Shown: positions 27,891-48,400 of the stretch, piece by piece
How the letters are laid out: each line of letters starts with the position of its first letter
How positions within the stretch are numbered: the stretch's first letter is position 1
From: Salvelinus alpinus
Lineage: Eukaryota; Chordata; Actinopteri; Salmoniformes; Salmonidae
DNA length: 64,000 nucleotides
NCBI RefSeq assembly: GCF_045679555.1
Contig: NC_092090.1
Span: forward strand, 27,923,702 to 27,987,701
Reading direction: 5' to 3'
Program-made: the position numbers and the translations under genes
The notes under the pieces: generated by a model
Database searches by the model: none
What the model saw: the letters and a program-made list of their open reading frames with translations, nothing else
Told to the model about the DNA's origin: nothing

Positions 27891-29409
27891 AATCCTTGTA
27901 CTGATTAATGTTACCTAACAAGCATCAGGTGACTATTGTTCAGAATACTCAGGTACCTCAATGTATTAGTTCGTTCTTGTATGACCAGACCAGAAGGCCT
28001 ATTTTGTTTACAAACTTAAGAAGAAGACTGAAAGTTGTATTTATTTTTTATGCATACAGTAACTAAAATACCGTTTTAAAGGGGCATACAGGTCTGCTCT
28101 GACTTTACACGTTATTGTTGTATTTGGTTATTAATACTTATTTCAAAGTGAAAAAGGTCTTAGGAACGTGTACATGTAAAACATTTTTTATTCTGTTTTT
28201 TCATTTTCATTTGCACTTAAAATAGTAGGTACCCTTTAATTTAAATTATTATTTTGTATTTTATTTCTCAGAATAGTTCCTGATTACCCTAAAGAGGGTT
28301 TTTAGTGTCTCACTAAAGAGAACCCTTGGTTTGGTCTTGAACATCATTTTCTGTTTAGTTGAATTTTAAAAGCCGGATAACAACTAGCTCAGAGTTAATG
28401 GTATAAGCTATTTTCACTTTAAGTTGACCTAAATGGTGCAGATCTCGGTTCCTTATCGCTTACGTTCACTGCTCCTACGTTTTTTACTCATCCTACAGTT
28501 TATACTTCTATATAATCTTTGTTGTTTTGTCTTTGTCGATAGTTTCTCTTAATGCTAGGGGGTTACGAAACAATGTGAAGCGCAAGGCATATTTTTATTT
28601 GCTAAACAATTTTGAACAGATTTTTGAGAGTCTCACTCTCTTTCTGCTGCCAACTTCTGTAGGTCCCAGTGGGGCAACGATATTTGGCTTTCCCATGGAT
28701 CTGAACACCGCTGGTGTCACTACAATGAAAAATACCTTTGGTGGTAATATTCTACATTCGGAATGTGACCGCTTTGGTCACTTTATCTGTCTTGTGATCA
28801 GTTACAATGACATTAGGCTCATTACTGTAAACTTCTATGGGTACAACACCAAACATGAGAATGATGAGTTGCTTGAATCTATAGAGAAACATATACTTCA
28901 TTGGTTTTCAAAATTTCCAATTAGATTATTATTGATAGAAGGGGACTTTAACATTACTATAGATAATTCATCTGATAGATGGCCTACAGGTACGACAACC
29001 AGTCAGAATTTGGGTTTAATACTTTTATGGAAAAGTTTGATCTTACTGATATATGGAGAGAAAGGTTTCCGGCCGACAGATCGTTCACTTGGAGTAACAA
29101 AACAGGTTCCAGACAGTCCAGAATAGATTTTTGGCTTATATCCAAATGTATTGATAGTGAGTGTGTTACTACAAATATTTGTACTACTCCCCTCACAGAC
29201 CATAGTGCCATTTACATTCATATCAAAATATTTACCCCTGACACTAACTTTGGAAGAGCATCCTACTGGAAGCTAAATAGCTTGTTATTAAATAATGACA
29301 TAGTTAAGTTTGAGGTTAAATATCTGCTCTCACATGTTTGGGAAAGGGCTTGTGAAGAAAAATTGTATTACAAGAAATGGGAGCTCTTTACATTTGAGGT
29401 GTCCAAATA

Positions 29410-31014
29410 CAGTGGGGAGAACAAGTATTTGATACACTGCCGATTTTGCAGGTTTTCCTACTTACAAAGCATGTAGAGGTCTGTAATTTTTATCATAGGT
29501 ACACTTCAACTGTGAGAGACGGAATCTAAAACAAAAATCCAGAAAATCACATTGTATGATTTTTAAGTAATTCCTTTGCATTTTATTGCATGACATAAGT
29601 ATTTGATACATCAGAAAAGCAGAACTTAATATTTGGTACAGAAACCTTTGTTTGCAATTACAGAGATCATACGTTTCCTGTAGTTCTTGACCAGGTTTGC
29701 ACACACTGCAGCAGGGATTTTGGCCCACTCCTCCATACAGACCTTCTCCAGATCCTTCAGGTTTCGGGGCTGTCGCTGGGCAATACGGAATTTCAGCTCC
29801 CTCCAAAGATTTTCTATTGGATTCAGGTCTGGAGACTGGCTAGACCACTCCAGGACCTTGAGATGCTTCTTACGGAGCCACTCCTTAGTTGCCCTGGCTG
29901 TGTGTTTCGGGTCGTTGTCATGCTGGAAGACCCAGCCACGACCCATCTTCAATGCTCTTACTGAGGGAAGGAGGTTGTTGGCCAAGATCTCGCGATACAT
30001 GGCCCCATCCATCCTCCCCTCAATACGGTGCAGTCGTCCTGTCCCCTTTGCAGAAAAGCAGCCCCAAAGAATGATGTTTCCACCTCCATGCTTCACGTTT
30101 GGGATGGGTTCTTGGGGTTGTACTCATCCTTCTTCTTCCTCCAAACACAGCGAGTGGAGTTTAGACCAAAAAGTTATATTTTTGTCTCATCAGACCACAT
30201 GACCTTCTCCCATTCCTCCTCTGGATCATCCAGATGGTCATTGGCAAACTTCAGACGGGCCTGGACATGCGCTGGCTTGAGCAGGGGGACCTTGCGTGCG
30301 CTGCAGGATTTTAATCCATGACGGCGTAGTGTGTTACTAATGGTTTTCTTTGAGACTGTGGTCCCAGCTCTCTTCAGGTCATTGACCAGGTCCTGCCGTG
30401 TAGTTCTGGGCTGATCCCTCACATTCCTCATGATCATTGATGCCCCACGAGGTGAGATCTTGCATGGAGCCCCAGACCGAGGGTGATTGACCGTCATCTT
30501 GAACTTCTTCCATTTTCTAATAATTGTGCCAACAGTTGTTGCCTTCTCACCAAGCTGCTTGCCTATTGTCCTGTAGCCCATCCCAGCCTTGTACAGGTCT
30601 ACAATTTATCCCTGATGTCCTTACACAGCTCTCTGGTCTTGGCCATTGTGGAGAGGTTGGAGTCTGTTTGATTGAGTGTGTGGACAGGTGTCTTTTATAC
30701 AGGTAACGAGTTCAAACAGGTGCAGTTAATACAGGTAATGAGTGGAGAACAGGAGGGCTTCTTAAAGAAAAACTAACAGGTCTGTGAGAGCCGGAATTCT
30801 TACTGGTTGGTAGGTGATCAAATACTTATGTCATGCAATAAAATGCAAATTAATTACTTAAAAATCATACAATGTGATTTTCTGGATTTTTGTTTTAGAT
30901 TCCGTCTCTCACAGTTGAAGTGTACCTATGATAAAAATTACAGACCTCTACATGCTTTGTAAGTAGGAAAACCTGCAAAATCGGCAGTGTATCAAATACT
31001 TGTTCTCCCCACTG
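29410..31014 (-). mobile_element. complete Tc1-like transposon, 1605 bp
   Basis: Long TIRs: cagtggggagaacaagtatt at the left and its complement at the right, continuing well past 100 bp. TA on both sides (29408-29409, 31015-31016). Inserted in L1 ORF2. Transposase on the minus strand (next entry). Confidence 0.93.
29626..30581 (-). pseudogene. Tc1 transposase, inactivated
   Basis: The N-terminal part from [20 protein letters not shown] to the first catalytic Asp (MWSDETKI) is followed by a nonsense codon (TAA in place of a Glu codon) at about 30174. A frameshift before [18 protein letters not shown] follows. The C-terminal part has HDNDPKHTA and [11 protein letters not shown], the other two catalytic residues. 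Only these two lesions are evident. The protein would cut and paste DNA at TA. Confidence 0.88.
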
Positions 31015-34200: not shown

Positions 34201-35328
34201 TATTTTTATATACCTGTGTTCCCACAAGTACTTCCTGTATGGATTTGTTTTTAATAAAATTTAAAAAATAGTATTTGTCCTACGTGTCGTGCAATAAATA
34301 TGCTGATAAAATTTAGGTAGCATTGTTCTGCAGCCCCCGGACATATAGTTTGCAGCAGTTTGGGCCGCATGGCTCGTTGCAAAATGTGTGAAGACCATTT
34401 CTTCCTAACAAAGACCGTAATTAATTTTCCAGAATTAAACATCATTATGACATAACATTGAAGCTTGTGCAATGTAACAGCAATATTTAGACTTAGGGTT
34501 GCCACCCGTTCTGAAAAAATACAGAGCGGTTCTGTATTTCACTGAAAGAATAAACGTTTTGTTTTCGAAATGAGTTTCCAGATTTGACCATATAAATGAC
34601 CAAAGGCTCATATTTCTGTGTGTTTATTATATTATAATTAAGTCTATGATTTGATATTTGATAGAGCAGTCTGAGCGGTAGTAGGCAGCAGCAGTCTCGT
34701 AAGCATTCATTCAAACAGCACTTTACTGCGTTTGCCAGCAGCTCTTAGCAATGCTTGAAGCACAGCTCTGTTTATGAGCCTATCAACTCAGCCTATCAAC
34801 CTATCAGCCTATCAACTCCCGAGATTAGGCTGGCAATACTAAAGTGTCTTTAAGAACATCCAATAGTCAAAGGTATATGAAATACAAAATGGTATAGAGA
34901 GAAATAGTTGACACGTCATAATTCCTATAACTACCACCTAAAACTTCTTAATTGGGAATATTGAAGACTCATGTTGAAAGGAACTACCAGCTTTCATGTT
35001 CTCATGTTCTGAGCAAGGCACTTAAACTTGAGCTTTTTTACATGGCACATATTGCACTTTTACTTTCTTCTCCAACACTGTGTTTTTTGCATTATTTAAA
35101 CCAAATTGAACATGTTTCATTATTTATTTGAGACTAAATTGATTTTATTTATGTATTATATTAAGTTAAAATAAAAGTGTTCATTGTTCATTCAGTAATG
35201 TTGCAATTATCATTATTACAAATATATATACAAAAATCTTCCGATTAATCGGTATCGTCTTTTTTTTGGTCCTCCAATAATCGGTATCGGCGTTGAAAAA
35301 TCATAATTGGTCGACGTCTACTTCAAAG

Positions 35329-36387
35329 CCTCTCAATGGCCAATACAAACCATCAGCAGTACAGGGTTTATATACATAATTAATTGCCTCCCACATTAAC
35401 AGTGCTGTTGACAGGTCTGGGATCTTCTATACTGTGACTTGTACAGTGTACACAGATTAATGTCATTCAAACCAGGCATGTGTGTGTGTTGACATGCAAA
35501 TTACTTGTTATGAGTGCAGAATGATGTGCAAATATTGATAAAAGCAACACGTGAATTCTTCATATTATATTTTGGAAATATTATATTTCATTAATAGTAC
35601 ACTGAATTGCTGTTTAACTTCAAATTAAAGCTGCAATATGTAACTTTATGGTATTCTCTACACTACACTTGCTTGTTGTCACATAAACTGAAATTAAGCG
35701 AACTATTAGATTTTTTGGAACCAGAAAACGGCTGAGAGATTTCTGCATAGTGCATTTTAAAAATGTCATAGCCTACATTAACATTTCTCAGTAGGCAAGG
35801 TGACATAACGTAACAACCCGTTCTATCCCCACCATAGATCACTGACACAATAGGACTAATCACTGTTAGTGATTCACTGATAAAATAAGAGTCATGTAAC
35901 CGCTGAATTAACCCTTGTCATCAAACATACTAGCACTGCCAGTCAGTGTACAATAGGGTAGGGTACATAAGAATACTGATGTACCAGTTCAAATACCTGA
36001 CTGTTATTTGATAATTCGCCAGAAACAATAGGGTCACACACAATGGTGCTTACTTAAAACAAGTGTCAGACCAGTTCCTTATCACAATGACTAATATGAC
36101 TAATATGAAAAGAATGCTACCAAACAAGCTGCCTGTAGTAGCAGAGCAGGTCAGAAGTTGCTACTTATTGTGAATGGATAAAACAAGCTTGCCCACACTG
36201 TTTACATCATTGGGAACATCACATCCAACATGATCCATAATGTACGTAAAAACATATAATAACCTATAAATAACACAACTACCATTTTAAGGGAAATGCT
36301 ACTAAAGAAGTTACATAAATTACAAACAGACATACACATGGCTGTAAACAATAATACTCCAGTATAGTTGACCCGCACTTGGCATCA
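35329..36387. other. nod2 3' flank and probable 3' UTR
   Basis: No further exon after the nod2 TGA at 36388. It should contain the 3' UTR, but no strong AATAAA signal was located. No known repeat recognised. Confidence 0.4.
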
Positions 36388-36460
36388 TCAGAATGTAAGC
36401 CTGGGTTCCCGCTGTGTCATCTCCTCCACCTCTTCTGGGCTGAGCTCATTACCTCTCAAC
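36388..36460 (-). CDS. nod2: nod2 terminal coding exon
   Basis: 73 nt ending in TGA. Encodes [20 protein letters not shown] and three more residues, matching human LRGNTFSLEEVDKL at the NOD2 C-terminus. Acceptor TTTCTAG. The 3' UTR should lie at lower coordinates; I did not identify a convincing polyadenylation site. Confidence 0.92.
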
Positions 36461-39400
36461 CTAGAAAGAAAACAATTATTCTCTTAACTCTAATTTACAG
36501 TCTTTGGATTAGAGACCTTCTTAAGTGATTAGAGATCCATTCTTCACGTGTATGGGGAGGTATAGGAGACTACAACATACTGTACTGTATGTATAGGACA
36601 TAACACTTTGTAAATTACATTTCTCAGCCAGTATATAACTGTCTAAATGATTAAAGCATAATGTTAACATACCACACTGCCTTCACACTAGTGTTGCCTT
36701 CAAGAGCCAGTATTAGACACTCCACACCTGTTCTTGTGATGCAGTTTTTGGTTAACCTGTGGAGGGCATGAGAGAGCAGAGTGAAAGATGTGTTTAGCAC
36801 AGCCACAACTTTCAAAATGTCAGTTGGGGCAAAACGGAATGTGGGTAGCTGCAAAGTCCTTTTCAGTATTCAGGATGTGCTATCAATATACTCACCACAG
36901 CTCCTCAAGCGTACTGTTCTTGATGAGTGGGGCAAGAGCACATGCTCCTGCACTGCCAACACCATTGTCTACCAGGCTGCCATGAAACATACATCTGACA
37001 GTAAGATTTATTCCTATGTTGAAGTATTTGAATGATAACAGGGCTGTCTGGACATATAGTTGCCCATGATAGTATGGATGTGTTAGTAATGTTCATGGTT
37101 CAACCTGTCACTAGTCTAACATTACCTGAGCCACACCAAGGTTTGGCTGTCCTTTAGAGCATTGGCAATGGCCTCTGCACCTTTATCACCTATTTTATTT
37201 CCCCAAAGCCTAAAAAACAGAGAGGATTAAAATGGTCAACCAGATATATTATTACAGCATTGTGATAGGCATAAAAACAACTTTGTCATTCTCAGAGAGA
37301 TAGGGTAGTCTGCTTCCTACCCCAAGAACTGTAGTGACCGATTGAACCTCAGTCCCTCCGCCAGTTGCCCTGCCCCTGCTGCGGTGATGTTATTGTTTCC
37401 CAGCCTGCAATACAAAGTCAGAGAAAGTGTTCGATTGAATATGGTATTAGCGATTGCTGTGTGAGGTAACATTGTACAGTATCTTATATGGTGAGAGTTG
37501 AAAAATATCCTCACCTTAGAGAGAGAAAATTCTGTTTCGTCTTCAGGAGGTGAGCGAAGCACTCTGTGCAGGCATCAGTTAGCTTGTTGTTGAACAGCCT
37601 TTCAGAGACATTAATCAAGATCAATAAAGGTAATAACCTCATCAGTTTTCTTTTTTACGTCTGCATATTTGACATAGCCATAGCATAGCCTAGCTATAGG
37701 TCAGGTCACCTGACAGTGGAAATTGATTTGGCCATACTCACGCAATCTTCTGAAAGCGCTCACACTGGATGCCTTTTTCAATCAATTTACGGATTCCCTC
37801 ATCTGATATGTTATTGTGTCTCAGGCTGAGGGAGTGAAATAAAAAATAGTCTTATTATTAGGCTTTAGTTTAGTGTCCTGTGTGTTGTGTTACTGGCACA
37901 AGGTAACATGTTTATGCTAAAATAATCCCATAGTGAGTGCCATAGTAAATAGCATGGTAAAGCTTTCCACACTTACTATACAGAGTGGCAGACATGCAGG
38001 CAAGGCAGCAGCTGCTCCACCCCAACGTCTCCTACGTAGTTGTAGTCTAGCTGAAGCCCCACAGGGTTCCTAAGGTGCTGGAGCACGTAGGCCAGCGCAG
38101 TACACTCCACAGGGCCTATGTTACAATAAGTCAGTTTCAGGTGTTCCACCTCTAGCTTAGCCATAGTGTCTCTGGCGATCCTGCTGTCCTGCATCTCATG
38201 GATGCACTTGATGAGCCACACGAAGCCTGGCATGGCGTGCATGCTCTTCTTCTCCCCCTCCACGGGCCGAGGGATGGATTTAAAGTGCTTCTGCATGCCT
38301 TTGGACAGGCACATCACCACCTGCTTGGACTTCCTGTCCAGAGTGGGCCCAGGGCAGGAGAGGAGAAGCAGGCTGCGGTGGCGCTGAGACAAGAGCCCAG
38401 ACACAAAAGTGGCTGTTATCTGGAGGTTGGGGGTCTCTGCTGCCGTATTGGCCTCCTTCAAGGCCCCTTCTTGTTGGGTCAAGCAGTGCCCCAGACACAC
38501 CCTGTGAAAGCCAGGCTGTTGCTGCCTGTCCTGCGGCTGAAAGAGCTTAGGGATGGTGGAGCGGTCCAAGTTATTGTTCAGGACAATGTAGAGAGCAGCA
38601 AAGAAGCACTGCATGGTAATGTGCAGGAACTCGTAGTGTTTGCAGTTAGTAGAGGAGGAGAGGTCTTCACTACGGATGAGGAACCCCATGCAGATATCTT
38701 CCTCGGTCACCCCACACTTCTGTAGCTCTGTGCCTGTGAAGACATAACAAGAGGCCCCCAGGCCCTCCATGGCTAGCTGCCCCAGATGCAAGGCAGTATC
38801 CTGGTGCTCCTGCACCCACCCTATCCCCATGGTGTTCCTCTGAGAGGCCCGGCGCTGGAAGAAGTGCTGCAGGATCATGAGGTAAACATCTGTGATGGTC
38901 TGGGGACTGCCCTCTCCCTCTCCACAGCCCAGCAGCTCCTTATAACACTTGGACACAATCCAGCAGAAAACCGGGATGTGACACAGGCCCAGTAGAGCTG
39001 TGTTGTTTCGTAGAGACTCCAGGACCCTGGTGGCCACCGTCGGGTCGCGAAGATACTTCCTCACGAAGCAGTCGATCCCGCCGGGCGAGAAGCCTTTCAA
39101 GAGGACTTCCTTGCGAAGGTACCGCTTCAGGGTGGGACCCACTGCCTCTGGCCGGCTGGTCACCACCTTAGGATGAGGATAAACTTTATTGTCCCTGAGG
39201 GGAAAATTGTCTCGATACAGGAACTGCTTTATACAAAATAAACACTATACATTACCCAGTTGACACATACACAATACATACATTGCACATAAAAATCCTA
39301 CACATGTCATTTAGCCGTATACATAAAACATACCTTCCTCACCCCCTTCATGAGGGATCCCTGCAGCAAGTTGAAGAGCAGGGTGGGGACTGGGGCACAC

Positions 39401-42400
39401 TGGGTGGGGCAGCAGTGCCTCTGCTCTGAGTCTGAGAAGCTCTGCATAAACTCGTCCAGGCCGTCGAAGGTGAAGAGGATGAGGTGCGGATGGTCCAGGA
39501 TGAACTGGAAGATTCGGTCCTGGTCCCCGTCCGGCCAGCAGCAGTGGAGGAACAGCAGCTCTCTGAGAGACAGCTCCCTCTGCTCCGAGCTCAGCCTGCG
39601 GCAGCTGAAGGGAAAGAGGAGGAAGAAATCATGTAGAGCCGCCCCCCTGGCCCAAAGGAGGTGTAGCCTCTGGAGAAGGGTGCTCTTCCCACTGCCTGCC
39701 TCCCCAGAGACTAGCACAGTGTCAGCCTCCTGGTTCAGGGTGCCCACCAGGCCCACCACGTCCTCCAGCCCCAGAGCACCAGTCTGGGGCTGGGCCTCAC
39801 TGCCACCCTGGGCAAGCTCCAGCTGACCCTCTGTGTAGATGTCTTCTAGAGACAGACTGCTGGTTCCTCCATACGTGCTGAGGAAATGTGACTGGGCCGA
39901 CACAGTGCTGCGCAGCTTCTTCTGATAGGACAAGCACTCTGCAGCAGTACACAAATGATAAGAATGTTTGAAATACACAGGACATCATAGCAAACAATAT
40001 AATATCTAAGTGTTAACTCGAAATGACACAACGACAAGGTTCCAGTTTAACAAAGTTTACTATACTATATGAACACACTACAAGTAGCCATTTCACTCAA
40101 GGCTAGGTCCAACAACGACAAGACTTCCTGCGCATGCGCACTCTTGACTGAGTGATAGCCCCGTAATAACAGAAATATAGGGATACTTAAAACATGAACT
40201 TAACAATCTCCCCCTTTTCTTTAAAGACAAAAAAAACATCAACAACATAATTAAATGTCCAAGTATTATTCAAGATCCCCATTACAAATGGGTTGTGTGA
40301 CAGTTTTTATTTGTATTACTCAAGCTGCCACTTTCCATTACTGAGAGCCTGTAGGAGCGAGAGCCTGTAGGAGCACAAGACCGGATGCTCCCTTTTTAGT
40401 CAGACAGTCAGCAAGCTGTTCCTTTGTGGTCGACCACAGAATCCGCTGGATTCTCTGTGCTTGAATAAGTTCCTTGATGCTGCTAATCTCAAAGTCGTTT
40501 CTCTGTGACAGACTTGGTTGACTTCACAGCATCAACTAATGAGTAGTTGTCAGTGACACAAACTACAGGTAGGAAGTGCCGTTTTGTCCCACCAGTGATA
40601 ACCTAGCGAAGCATCACGGAAGACAACTAGTTTCAAAGAGTCATCTTTTCCAACATGCTGAAACTTTAAAGTCACTTGTTGTGATTCCAGTTTACGAACA
40701 ACTTTGTTTGCCCCATGAATGGTTTGTACAGTGGCGTGTTTTGTGTTCGATGCCAAGTTGCAACCATCAACCCAGGTCTACTCTGTCTCGCAGCCCATAA
40801 AATTTGTCCCATCTTTGACCTCAATTGACCAGCTTCAATTCCACATAGAGGGGAATTCCTTTGTACGGCTCTTGAAGAATCCATGTGGATGGGTTGAAGA
40901 TTCTTGATATAGCTCTCCTGTTGCATCAGTATTTTTCCATCAACTGTAATAAACTCTATGCCAACATAACAAAAATGATCATGCTCCTCACGGCCAACCT
41001 AGAAAACAGCTTTGAGGTGTGGAATCACAGTTGAAGCAAAGGTCTGTGAGCCACCCCAGATAAAGTCATCAACATGACAGGCAAGTACTCCAGTCACATT
41101 GCAGTCTTGATCAAGCCAATAGAAGACTGCAGGATCCACTTGTGACATTTTTCCACCTGTATTCAGCATTGTTGCCTTGACTTTGTTGTACCAGTAGAGT
41201 GATCCATCTGCCAGTCCATACACACACTTTTTTAGTTTCCACAGTGTTCCTTCACTTTTAGCTTCGGGCGGAGGTCGGATGTGAATGTCCCTTGACAGCT
41301 CTGTTCCCTGCAAAAATCCAGATTTGATGTCTATGGAATTAAGTTTCCATTTTTTCTGGCAGATCACTGACATCAGCAATCTGAGTGACTCTGAGGCGCA
41401 TGTCGGTGAGTCTTTTGGGAGTTCTTTAGCAGCCAGCTCCTCAAAACCTCTAGCCACTAGACGTGCTTTGGGCACTATTCCAGTTAAGGATTCTTTAAGG
41501 GTACACACCCACCTTGTTGAGACGCACTTTTGGCCAATGTCTTTGACTTCCTCAAACACTCCATTTTTCCTCCAATTACTGAGCTCATCTAGCTTAGCTG
41601 AGTCAAATGACACGTCCTTTGTTTCAAGTACATCATCATTTTGAATGTCATTCTGTTTTTCTCGATTTTCCATTGGTTCAATTCTGATATTATCTACAAG
41701 TGGCAGGTCAGCTGACCCTGTTGTACCAGAAAGTGTAGCTGGTTCAGAGTACTGCAAGTTGTACCAGTTCTTGTGTTTTGCTTTTCCTGCTCGTCCAATG
41801 ACGGTTGCTGTATGTGGAATACCACTTTCTCTGTCCGTGTATTTAACAGTTTGTCCAGTTTTCAGATTGGAACAACCATGTTCTCTTAACACATGTGGCT
41901 GTTGAATGTTTTCCTCATTTGAACGCTCAACAGTATTACCTGTGGCATGGTTGAAGGTCTCTGCTCCATTTCCTGTGTCAGTTTCGGTGTCCATATCATT
42001 GGATGCGACATCTGGTAGGTTTGTGTCTGTTACTGTGTCCTTTTTGTCATTTTCATTAGGAGACTGATTCTCAGCAACAGCCCCTCTATCTTGTTGATCA
42101 TTTACTTTCCGCAATCTTGAGTGATGCACCCTGACAATCATGCCTCCGTGCCTCACAAATATCACCACACCATCTTGACCAATGACTACTCCCGGTCCTT
42201 TCCACTCTTGACAGTCAACTCGTTTGTAGTACACTTTGTTTCCAGTTTCGTACTTCTCATCATCATTATTCCCTGAACTGCTCAGTAACTTCTGAAGTCT
42301 GTTAACTGTATCATGTCCAAACTGTTTGTAAAGCTTTAACAATACTTTGTGTTTTTCTTTAGTGCTCATGTTCTCTGTGACTGTCAGAATCTTCATGTGC

Positions 42401-45400
42401 TCTGTGTCAGTCAGAATCTCATTTTTGCATGGACTCTGTGTGATGTATTTGTCTAAAATGTTTACACAATAGTGGCCTGAGGTAGTAAGTTCAAGAGTCA
42501 CTGGTTGTTTAAACATCACTGCCTTGTCATTTTTTATGTCTAGTACAGCCTCTGCCTTCTTGAGGGAAGCTTTGCTTAATAGTAAGGGGATATCTGTAGG
42601 GACCACCTCTGTTTCAATGTGACACTTAGTCTGACCAATTTTTGCTGGTATCTTAACTCTCTTGGTAGAATGGACAATTCTCCCATCTCCAAATTTGAAA
42701 GCTCTGTTGCTTGGTGTGTCAATCATATTTTGTACTTCTTTCATATTTAGTTCACTGACATAGCTATCAAGCCATTTTGCACCACACACTGTCCGTGTAC
42801 ATGCAGTATCAATCACAGCAGATCCTAAGGATTCAACTATAAAAATCTCAGTATCAGAAGCAGATTCATTTGAAAACAGTGTAATGTTACACTGCTCTAT
42901 CTCTGTGTTTACATTTTCCTCTGTTAGTTTAACTTGTTCATTTTTATGAGGACAGTCTTTAACCCAATGGTAAGTGCTTTGACAAATAGCACATTTCGAT
43001 CTCCTTCCATATGTGTCCAGTGGATTTGTGCCGGGAAATGGCGCCCTCTTCTGGTTGTCTTGAGAACGTGACTTGTTGGCGCCTTTTCTGTGCTGCTCGG
43101 TGTAATATGCTTCCATCTGTTATTGGCGCGACAGACGTCTTCTCACCAAATATTATTTTTAGTGCCGACTTCATAGATGCAAAAGTCAGCACAGTACAAG
43201 CAGTCAAAGCCAACTGTTTCTCCCTACCATCTAGACAAGCAGTGTCTAGCAACTTGAACCCTAACACTGCATCTGGGAGAACAATGTCGTACTTGCGCAT
43301 TCTATTGTACCTCTGTTCGAAATCAATGATGTAGTCCGCCATTGCAACCGAAATATCTCTCGTAACACTGTCAAAGTTTGAATATGCCTCGTAGGCACGG
43401 TCTTTCTCTTCTTTAAGAAATACAGAATCCAGTGCGGTGATCAAAGTTCCCATACCGTCATCCTTGTTCAAATCCTCAACGGATATTTCCAGTGCTGTAT
43501 CTCTCGCTCTTCCCTCGAGCGATAATACCACCGCAAGTGCTTGCTTTTTCGCGTCCAGATTAGTAACGCGTGTCCAGATTCCCAGTTCATTTTTCCAACT
43601 TTCGTACGACCTCTTCTCGTCGAAGCGAGGTGGCACATTGTAGTTAGAAGCCATCCTCTGCTACCAATGTTAACTCGAAATGACACAACGACAAGGTTCC
43701 AGTTTAACAAAGTTTACTATACTATATGAACACACTACAAGTAGCCATTACACTCAAGGCTAGGTCCAACAACGACAAGACTTCCTGCGCATGCGCACTC
43801 TTGACTGAGTGATAGCCCCGTAATAACAGAAATATAGGGATACTTAAAACATGAACTTAACACTAAGAAGTATTAGTGTAACACCTATGTGTTAGTGCTG
43901 TATGCAAACGACTTGCAAGTAGCCGTGTGACTTTTAGTGTTGTGATATAATACAGTACCTTTGGGAGGAGCCTCTTGGTTAAATGGTGAGGGATGGTCCT
44001 CTGTTTGCTGAAAGTATTGCAGTAGGACCTTTGCTGCAGGCTCCCCCTTTGATCTGACCTGGTCCAGTAGACGCCTTGCCTACATGACAAAGAAGTCAAT
44101 TAATTCACATTCACTATCTGAACCTAAATAACATGTCAAATTACAAAAAAAGTCTAAGGACAGCATGACCTGTTTGGATTCAAAGATGTGCAAACTGGAA
44201 CTTAATTCCAAGAGGGACAGGGAAGTTGTGTAATATCATAGTACTCTACATCATACCAGGCATGTAGATATAAATAAAGCTGTTATACTGGTCTCAGGGT
44301 GCGGTTGGTTACCTGTTGTGAGGGGGTGTACACAAGTAGCTGCACTTCATCGCAATCAGATGGTGTAAAGCTGCCTGTATGCAGCAGGACCTCCAGAGCT
44401 CCTTCAATATGGTCCTTTAGCCTCCTCACCAGACCAGGCCTGTCTGTCTGGAGGGTCTGGATAGCTGTACCATGTAGTTCTTTTGTATCATCTCTTGTAT
44501 TTTCTAGATCGGCAGTACGACAGTTTCCAAAAGAGAGGCCAGCTCTTTGGGCCTCAGGGAGGACCTGGTTGAAAGCAATACAATTAAATAAAAATGTAAT
44601 GATCTGTATCTTTAATGATCTGTATCTATGTAATGATTTGTATCTATGTAATGATCTGTATCTTTAATGATCTGTATCTTTAATGATCTGTATCTATGTA
44701 ATGATTTGTATCTATGTAATGATCTGTATCTATGTAATGATCTGTATCTTTGTAATGATCTGTATCTTTGTAATGATCTGTATCTTTGTAATGATCTGTA
44801 TCTTTGTAATGATCTGTATCTTTGTAATGATTTGTATCTTTGTAATGATTTGTATCTATGTAATTGTAAAGGTTTTCTTCCTGGGGTGAAGGAGAGGACC
44901 AAAATGCAGCGTAGCCAGTGCTCAACATGTTTAATTATAAGAACAAGTGAACACTACAAACAACTTACAAAATAACAAACGTGCAAAACCGATACAGACC
45001 TATCTGGTGCAGAACACAAACACAGAGACAGGTAACAACCACCCACAACGAACACAGTGAAACAACCTACCTAAATATGACTCCTAATTAGAGGAACGCA
45101 AAACACCTGCCTCTAATTAAGAGCCATACCAGGCAACCCTAAACCAACATAGAAACACACAACATAGAATGCCCACCCAAAACTCACGCCCTGACCATCA
45201 CACACATACAAAACAACAGAAAACAGGTCAGGAACGTGACAGAACCCCCCCCTCAAGGTGCCAACGCCGGGCGCACCAGCACAAAGTCCAGGGGAGGGTC
45301 TGGGTGGGCATCTGACCACGGTGGTGGCTCAGGCTCCGGACGCTGTCCCCACACCATAGTCACTCCCCGCTTCTGTATCCCCCTCCCAATGACCACCCTC

Positions 45401-48400
45401 CAACTAAAACCACCTAAATGAAGGGGCAGCACCGGGATAAGGGGCAGCACCGGGATAAGGGGCAGCACCGGGATAAGGGGCAGCACCGGGATAAGGGGCT
45501 GGCAGGTCCTGGCTGAGGAACTCTGGCAGGTCCTGGCTGAGGGACTCTGGCAGGTCCTGGCTGAGGGACTCTGGCAGGTCCGGGCTGAGGGACTCTGGCA
45601 GGTCCGGGCTGAGGGACTCTGGCAGGTCCGGGCTGAGGGACTCTGGCAGGTCCGGGCTGAGGGACTCTGGCAGGTCCGGGCTGAGGGACTCTGGCAGGTC
45701 CGGGCTGAGGGACTCTGGCAGGTCCGGGCTGACGGAAGGCTCTGGCTGATCCGGGCTGACGGAAGGCTCTGGCTGATCCGGGCTGACGGAAGGCTCTGGC
45801 TGATCCGGTCTGGCGGAAGGCTCTGGCTGATCCGGTCTGGCGGAAGGCTCTGGCTGATCCGGTCTGGCGGAAGGCTCTGGCTGATCCGGTCTGGCGGAAG
45901 GCTCTGGCTGATCCGGTCTGGCGGAAGGCTCTGGCTGATCCGGTCTGGCGGACGGCTCTAGCGGCTCCTGTCTGGCGGACGGCTCTAGCGGCTCCTGTCT
46001 GGCGGACGGCTCTGTAGGCTCATGGCAGACGGGCGGCTTTGCAGGCTCATGGCAGACGGGCGGCTTTGCAGGCTCATGGCAGACGGGCGGCTTTGCAGGC
46101 TCATGGCAGACGGACAGTTCAGACGGCGTAGGGCAGACGGGCAGTTCAGACGCCGCTGGGCAGACGGGCAGTTCAGGCGCCGCTGGGCAGACGGGCAGTT
46201 CAGGCGCCGCTGGGCAGACGGGCAGTTCAGGCGCCGCTGGGCAGACGGGCAGTTCAGGCGCCGCTGGGCAGACGGGCAGTTCAGGCGCCGCTGGGCAGAC
46301 GGGCAGTTCAGGCGCCGCTGGGCAGACGGCAGACTCTGGCCGGCTGAGACGCACTGTAGGCCTGGTGCGTGGTACCGGAACTGGAGGTACCGGGCTAAGG
46401 ACACGCACCTTCAGGCTAGTGCGGGGAACAACAACAGGGCACACTGGACTCTCGTGGCGCACTCTAGGCCTGGTGCGTGGTACCGGAACTGGAGGTACCG
46501 GGCTGAGGGCACGCACCTCAGGGCGAGTGCGGGGAGAAGGAACAGTGCGTACAGGGCTCTGGAGACGCACAGGAGGCTTGGTGCGTGGTGCCGGAACTGG
46601 TGGTACTGAGCTGGGGTGGGAAGGTGGCGCCGGATATACCGGACCGTGAAGGAGGACACGTGCTCTTGAGCACCGAGCCTCCCCAACCTTACCAGGTTGA
46701 ATGGTCCCCGTAGCCCTGCCAGTGCGGCGAGGTGGAATAGCCCGCACTGGGCTATGCAGGCGAACCGGGGACACCACCTGTAAGGCTGGTGCCATGTACA
46801 CCGGCCCGAGGAGACGTACTGGAGGCCAGATACGTTGGGCCGGCTTCATGGCATCCGGCTCGATGCCCAACCTAGCCATCCCAGTGCGGCAAGGTGGAAT
46901 AGCCCGCACTGGGCTAAGCACGCGTACTGGGGACACCGTGCGCTTTACCGCATAACACGGTGTCTGACCAGTACGACGCCCTCTTACTCCACGGTAAGCC
47001 CGGGGAGTTGGCTCAGGTATCCAACCCGGCTTCGCCACACTCCCCTTTAGCCCCCCCCAAGAAATTTTTGGGTGAGCCTCTCGGGTTTCCAGCCACTCTG
47101 CCTTGCAAGCGCCTCATAATGACGCCTCTCCGCTTTTGATGCCTCCAGCTCCGCTTTGGGACGGCGACACTCCTCTGGCTCTGCCCAGGGTCCTTCTCCG
47201 TCCAGAATCTCCTCCCATGTCCATTCCTCCTTGTACTGCTGCTGCTGTTGCTGCTGCCCGTTGTCACGCTGCTTGGTCCGGGTTTGGTGGGTGGTTCTGT
47301 AAAGGTTTTCTTCCTGGGGTGAAGGAGAGGACCAAAATGCAGCGTAGCCAGTGCTCAACATGTTTAATTATAAGAACAAGTGAACACTACAAACAACTTA
47401 CAAAATAACAAACGTACAAAACCGATACAGACCTATCTGGTGCAGAACACAAACACAGAGACAGGTAACAACCACCCACAACGAACACAGTGAAACAACC
47501 TACCTAAATATGACTCCTAATTAGAGGAACGCAAAACACCTGCCTCTAATTAAGAGCCATACCAGGCAACCCTAAACCAACATAGAAACACACAACATAG
47601 AATGCCCACCCAAAACTCACGCCCTGACCATCACACACATACAAAACAACAGAAAACAGGTCAGGAACGTGACAGTAATGATCTGTATCTATGTAATGAT
47701 CTGTATCTTTGCAATGATCTGTATCTATGTAATGATCTGTATCTTTGTAATGATCTGTATCTATGTAATGATCTGTATCTATGTAATGATCTGTACCTAT
47801 GTAATGGTCTGTACCTATGTAATGATCTGTATCTTTGGGACATGGCAACTGATTTGTATCGCTCAACATTTTTGCCTAGTGGCTTTTTACTAAGACAATA
47901 CGTTAGGAACACCTGCTCTTTCCATGACATAGACTGACCAGGTGAATCCATGTGAAAGCTATGATCCCTTATTAGATTCACTTCAATCAGTGTAGTTGAA
48001 GGGGAGGAGACAGGTTAAATAATTATTTTTAAGCCTTGAGACAATTGAGACATGGATTGGTTATGTGTGTGCCATTCAGAGGGTGAATGGGCAAAACAAA
48101 AGTTTTAAGTGCCTTTGAACAGGGTAGTAGGTGCCAGGCACACCGGTTTGAGTGTGCAAAGAACTGCAATGCTGCTTTTCGCGCTCAACAGTTTCCCGTG
48201 TGTATCAAGAATGGTCCACCACCCAAAAGACATCTAGCCAACTTGACACAACTGTGGGAAGAATTGGAGTCAACATGGGCTAGCATCCCTGTGGAACGCT
48301 TTTGGCACCTTGTAGAGTCCATGCCCCCGACAAATTGATGCTGTTCTGAGGGCAAAAGGGGGTGCAACTCAATATTAGGAAGGTGTTCCTAATGTTTTGT

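Follow-up and report, generated by a model that had tools for sequence, protein, structure and literature searches.

How did 167 bp come to interrupt the large NACHT exon of nod2 in Salvelinus alpinus, and does the gene still encode the NOD2 peptide across the break? In the window, by which we mean the whole stretch of 64,000 nucleotides that was analyzed, nod2 lies on the minus strand and its NACHT exon is split at 39334|39166. Our answer, which we hold to be highly probable, is that the 167 bp are an intron that was born from the 3′ end of a LINE at a duplicated A(A)GGT and that is excised with the coding sequence unchanged, where we infer the splicing, the target-primed mode of insertion, and the date.

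A 167-bp insert splits the NACHT exon of nod2

To define what the insert interrupts, we read the exons on both sides of it. The exon 5′ of the insert (39334..39938, −; tgctgcag|AGTGCT...GAAG|gtatgttt) encodes the part of NACHT with Walker A and Walker B and is recognized as NACHT in Pfam. The exon 3′ of the insert (37977..39166, −) encodes sensor 1, the winged helix, HD2, and the first LRR, as shown by alignment to rabbit NOD2. Seven further exons (36388..37825, −) encode LRRs to the TGA. Without the insert, a single open frame runs from the NACHT exon through these seven following exons to that TGA, and our reading of the NACHT and LRR exons found no lesion besides the insert. The spliced product contains the NACHT, NOD2 winged-helix, and HD2 domains in Pfam and, over query residues 14-612, can be aligned to rabbit NOD2 (5irl) with an E value of 6.9e-189. 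The alignment is gap-free at the junction.

Upstream, the CARD exons were seen as ORFs, while the open frame was joined from the NACHT exon onward; the CARD exon ORF at 44283-44663 gave no Pfam match. Two trout NOD2 transcripts differ at the 5′ end, according to a review (PMC5536018). The intron directly 5′ of the NACHT exon carries Ty1/copia-like gag-pol ORFs (40672-43660, −) that are missing from the second nod2 copy described below, and coding-like long tandem repeats, composed of a YRSLQR-type unit and a 13-residue unit, lie between the CARD exons at 44600-44950 and 45250-47100.

The insert has the anatomy of an intron

An earlier note on this DNA had proposed that a 167-bp insert with AAGGT on either border splits the exon, that removing GT...AG restores the frame and peptide, and that keeping the insert stops translation. 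All of this could be seen in the window. The putative intron occupies 39167..39333 (−; GTATGTTTTATG...CATCCTAAG) and is composed of a LINE 3′ end and one copy of the direct repeat. The left AAGGT lies at 39332..39336 (−) and includes the donor AAG|GT, and the right AAGGT lies at 39165..39169 (−) and includes the acceptor AAG|GT. Excision of GTATGT...CCTAAG yields a single frame in which the NOD2 peptide is restored exactly, whereas retention adds VCFMYTAK and then meets a TGA at 39307..39309 (−).

The length of 167 bp compares with 110-212 bp for the other nod2 introns scored. Using provisional weights for all splice-site scores, we obtained 5.48 for the donor AAG|GTATGT (range 0.22 to 7.14 over eight nod2 introns) and a low −0.53 for the acceptor, which is nevertheless within the nod2 range of −3.09 to 8.15 over the same number of introns. 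There are several candidate competing sites. An in-frame donor, GGG|GTGAGG at 39342 (score 3.94), lies nine bases upstream and would take GTGAGGAAG (39334..39342, −) from the exon. A competing acceptor, TTTTCCCCTCAG, ends at 39195 (score 0.32) and would keep 28 bases (39167..39194, −), reading GGA CAA TAA and hence a stop. An in-frame acceptor ending at 39224 (score −0.46) would keep 57 bases (39167..39223, −) in open frame as 19 LINE-derived residues, and another ending at 39227 (score −1.68) would add 20 LINE residues. Leaky splicing of this intron is plausible.

The insert is the 3′ end of a LINE

The earlier note had also read the end of the insert as an L2-type LINE tail with a short repeat. 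We found that nearly all of the intron consists of the retroposon 3′ end: a genome search with the insert gave 40 scored matches at 71-100% identity, one of them the insert itself, and 20 copies that we retrieved can be aligned with it from around intron base 5 through to its final bases. The homologous stretch runs from intron base 5 to about base 164 (39170..39329, −), so that homology becomes clear just beyond the AT that follows the left AAGGT. The family copies have a common 3′ end with a short ATCCT-type tandem tail, and their 5′ ends vary, with matched starts from consensus base 1 to 140. A common 3′ end, a short tandem tail, and variable 5′ truncation are together the pattern expected of a 5′-truncated non-LTR retroposon, and we classify the family as a LINE on this pattern. 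One copy that reaches further upstream, L018, reads FKRSFLPMSIKYLNSNQ-stop by eye, which resembles the way in which LINE reading frames end. At five copies, stretches of about 5.3 kb hold only decayed ORFs, and four decayed ORF fragments tried for the LINE clade (L2 reverse transcriptase) gave no Pfam match.

When 669 bp of one copy were used as query, the matches listed were mostly minisatellite arrays that stem from the element. A repeat of ∼31 bp in the more upstream part of the LINE 3′ region forms kb-long arrays at several places (G000 C5:43018-43032 kb, C31:10115-10127 kb, C13:41493-41497 kb, and C9:11218-11222 kb).

A duplicated AGGT is the probable source of both splice sites

AG|GT is present on both sides of the insert, and the duplicated AGGT supplies both the donor and the acceptor. 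This part of the proto-splice-site duplication proposed earlier stands. The other part, that the repeat is a target-site duplication, is weaker: it fits the single repeat at this locus, which is only 4-5 bp long since the right AAGGT may owe its first A to the LINE's own tail (CCTA), and no clear target-site duplication was found in 20 other family copies (best L019, p 0.05), where the true 5′ end was reached in only 11 of the 20. In the other nine (L017, L018, L019, L020, L022, L027, L029, L030, and L035) the match ran up to the first 8 bases of the consensus, short of the true 5′ end. A blind duplication test on the window copy chose GGTGA (p 0.31) and did not single out AAGGT.

We propose the following sequence of events. 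LINE RNA would have been copied by reverse transcription into an ancestral nod2, at AGGAAGGTGGTG of its still uninterrupted NACHT exon, with just ∼160 bp of the LINE 3′ end arriving, presumably by target-primed insertion, and the insertion would have been flanked by the duplicated A(A)GGT. The left copy would then have become the donor AAG|GT, which the bases after it extend to GTATGT, and the right copy the acceptor AAG|G, while the pyrimidine-rich LINE tail TTTATCCTCATCCT would serve as the polypyrimidine tract. The spliceosome would take out exactly the insert and one copy of the repeat, and hence leave the coding sequence unchanged.

The splice sites could also have arisen with no target-site duplication, or a very short one, if the LINE contributed its own GTAT and CCTA tail to parts of the donor and acceptor and point changes followed. 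The LINE consensus at the 5′ break is indeed CAAAGTATTATG, with its own GTAT, the tail does end in CCTA, and the other 20 copies are without clear duplications, though in nine of them the match stopped short of the true 5′ end. However, AAGGT stands in both flanks exactly where duplication predicts it, and the coding sequence is the same to the base. We therefore regard an origin without duplication as unlikely and retain the duplicated A(A)GGT as the source of both sites.

The interrupted exon appears to be the derived state

The earlier note described this exon as uninterrupted in human. In a protein search with the NACHT part, 82 of the 91 proteins listed stop exactly at the end of the large exon, like genomic single-exon ORFs, so that the exon looks uninterrupted in many other fishes and in mammals and the interruption is derived. 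The first residues of P0122 lack homology and look like translated sequence of the intron before the exon. The best match to the query was at most 87% identical among the matches listed, a ceiling that fits an interrupted exon in salmonids without being proof of it.

Could the LINE instead have landed in a small intron that was already present at this site? At 167 bp, the intron does resemble the other scored nod2 introns (110-212 bp). Against this, the LINE homology extends from about base 5 to the intron end and leaves no older intron sequence, and the exon seems uninterrupted in those 82 matches. We consider a pre-existing intron very improbable and favor insertion into an intact exon. The same intron lacking the LINE tail, a finding in distant teleosts that would speak against this origin, was not seen among the proteins compared.

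We also compared the junction across 211 NOD2-like proteins, made up of the 91 listed by the NACHT-part search and 120 listed of 437 from a first search. In 207 of them (196 by script and 11 by eye) the residues at the junction are spaced as in the spliced product. The four exceptions are P0002, Dallia P0004, P0211, in which the frame is lost at the site, and P0210. The retained-intron peptide CFMYTAK is absent from the 211 proteins, an absence that carries no information, since short ORFs lie beyond the length limits of the search and each cluster is represented by one protein. At the protein level, the junction peptide is normal in Esox P0003 and Umbra P0121. The NOD2 record of Dallia pectoralis, P0004, is three residues short at the junction (MKG|VVTSRP) and is the sole listed protein with a three-residue gap exactly there. 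This gap is what the donor nine bases upstream, GGG|GTGAGG, would give, and it may reflect an intron in a pike relative; it equally fits a 9-bp deletion between GTG repeats and is no proof of an intron.

A second nod2 copy has the same insertion and has lost the donor

A comparison between nod2 duplicates had been suggested as a way to date the insertion. We found a second copy (L010; G000 C33:26064295-26065930) in a block collinear with the window, and it has the same insertion at the same base, which gives a relative minimum age. This copy keeps the last 63 bp of the insert, and its right AAG|GTG junction is identical. On the 5′ side of this remnant a net 131 bp have been deleted: 29 bp from the end of the upstream exon, the donor, and roughly the first 104 bp of the insert; the break itself has 2 bp that were left over or added. 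The remaining sequence is open in frame and encodes 22 residues, mostly LINE, in place of ten. The same LINE peptide occurs in P0002, an NCBI "LOW QUALITY" NOD2 record from a Salvelinus and the only protein with it among 24 candidates scored. Since P0002 differs from the C33 copy elsewhere, the deletion is probably common to more than one species.

The C33 copy also has frame-breaking exon indels of 2, 4, 5, and 2 bp and one TAG, in addition to two 3-bp deletions that keep the frame. The frame-breaking indels and the stop are found in the C33 copy and not in the window copy. Judged by these lesions, the C33 copy is a pseudogene. It is also a natural case of donor loss, which goes beyond what the earlier note had described.

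Elsewhere in the window, transposase-like ORFs at 29407-31001, presumably of Tc1/mariner style, fall within a segment that matches a C33 segment at 97.8% identity.

Constraint downstream of the insert argues for splicing

To ask whether the window copy still makes protein past the insert, we compared the two copies codon by codon. All compared codons together show 31 synonymous and 32 non-synonymous differences, the TAG included among the latter. When polarized against seven other fish proteins, 23 of the 32 had changed in the C33 copy and 8 in the window copy, with 1 ambiguous (8 versus 23, binomial p 0.011). Downstream of the intron we counted 26 synonymous and 24 non-synonymous differences, 7 of the latter on the window copy. 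If the window exons downstream of the intron are constrained, as these counts suggest, ribosomes must reach them and the insert must be removed. In addition, the NCBI protein P0001 from S. namaycush has exactly the spliced junction, and its sequence departs from the window protein at two residues and at a third that borders an LRR exon absent from that isoform. From the downstream constraint and the P0001 junction, we infer that the 167 bp are spliced out of window nod2.

The insert might instead remain in the transcript of a recently dead gene. The duplicate on C33 is a pseudogene, after all. Such a recent death sits poorly, however, with NACHT and LRR exons that are otherwise free of lesions, with the constraint 3′ of the insert, with a P0001 annotated across the spliced junction, and with an insertion common to both copies and hence not recent. 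We give very little weight to an unspliced pseudogene and take window nod2 to be a spliced gene.

The insertion is older than the last state that both copies shared

Since both copies have the insertion at the same base, it must be older than their last common state, and dating by two copies gives a relative age only. The K2P distance between the nod2 copies is 0.039 in intron sequence and 0.051 in 3′ sequence. If the two copies date from the salmonid genome doubling, the intron is older than the doubling, a bound that gene conversion would loosen. An age based on the family itself was rejected: the insert differs by 20% (K2P 0.23) from a consensus that is built of mostly younger copies.

Gene conversion could have carried the insertion into the C33 copy later from the window copy, in which case the intron may postdate the salmonid genome doubling. 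When window 35321-44620 was compared with C33, the nod2 blocks had K2P values of 0.030-0.051, below the 0.053-0.114 of the flanking collinear blocks, as conversion would have it. Yet this gap is only about twofold, and coding sequence lowers the divergence of the nod2 blocks. We regard later conversion as possible but doubtful.

Returning to an insertion shared by descent, we offer a joint reading of these results that is tentative and that we would not bet on as a whole. The intron would predate the salmonid doubling, perhaps lying on the salmonid-pike stem, and would since then have supplied splice choices in a bacterial sensor: the in-frame donor 9 nt upstream, the stop-creating acceptor, and the in-frame acceptors that add LINE peptide beside sensor 1. 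The second copy would have lost its donor, and the LINE remnant would have joined its frame. Were this true, the pair of copies would be a before-and-after record of the birth of an intron and of a reversal from intron to exon.

Comparison with known routes of intron gain

The mechanism of intron gain is seldom visible. At the nod2 site the source element, the duplicated proto-splice site, the uninterrupted exon of other fishes, and the same protein can all be read together, and the C33 copy shows the aftermath of donor loss. Because the intron interrupts the ATPase core of NOD2, one can test directly what imperfect splicing does to this bacterial sensor. A literature search, with most subscription papers outside its reach, returned no title or abstract opening that reports this intron.

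Yenerall and Zhou (2012, PMC3443670) set out a model in which introns are gained when a transposon inserts at AGGT. Like that AGGT proto-splice-site model, nod2 has an exonic element with AGGT on both sides, a donor AG|GT, an acceptor AG|G, and an unchanged coding sequence. The mobile element is found elsewhere in the genome (40 matches, 20 of them aligned), and the exon appears uninterrupted in outgroups, where 82 of 91 matches end at the exon end. Unlike the cases in the table of that paper, which come from Oryza, Drosophila, Oikopleura, and Zea, the nod2 case involves a fish and the 3′ end of a LINE.

Vertebrate intron gain is held to be rare by Torii et al. (2025, PMC12357937). We see the nod2 intron as a good instance of a route that is known but seldom documented in vertebrates. 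It resembles the notothenioid slc26a2 introns of that study: in both, a dispersed repeat gave rise to an intron in a single fish lineage, and gt-ag lies within short direct repeats. The slc26a2 element, however, with its inverted ends and 4-nt direct repeats, was extended by a second element, whereas the nod2 intron is one 5′-truncated LINE that is also present in a second copy of the gene. Lastly, as in introners (PNAS 2022, PMC9860276), a mobile element forms the complete intron. Each introner family accounts for many introns; the nod2 LINE accounts for one, known here from this locus.
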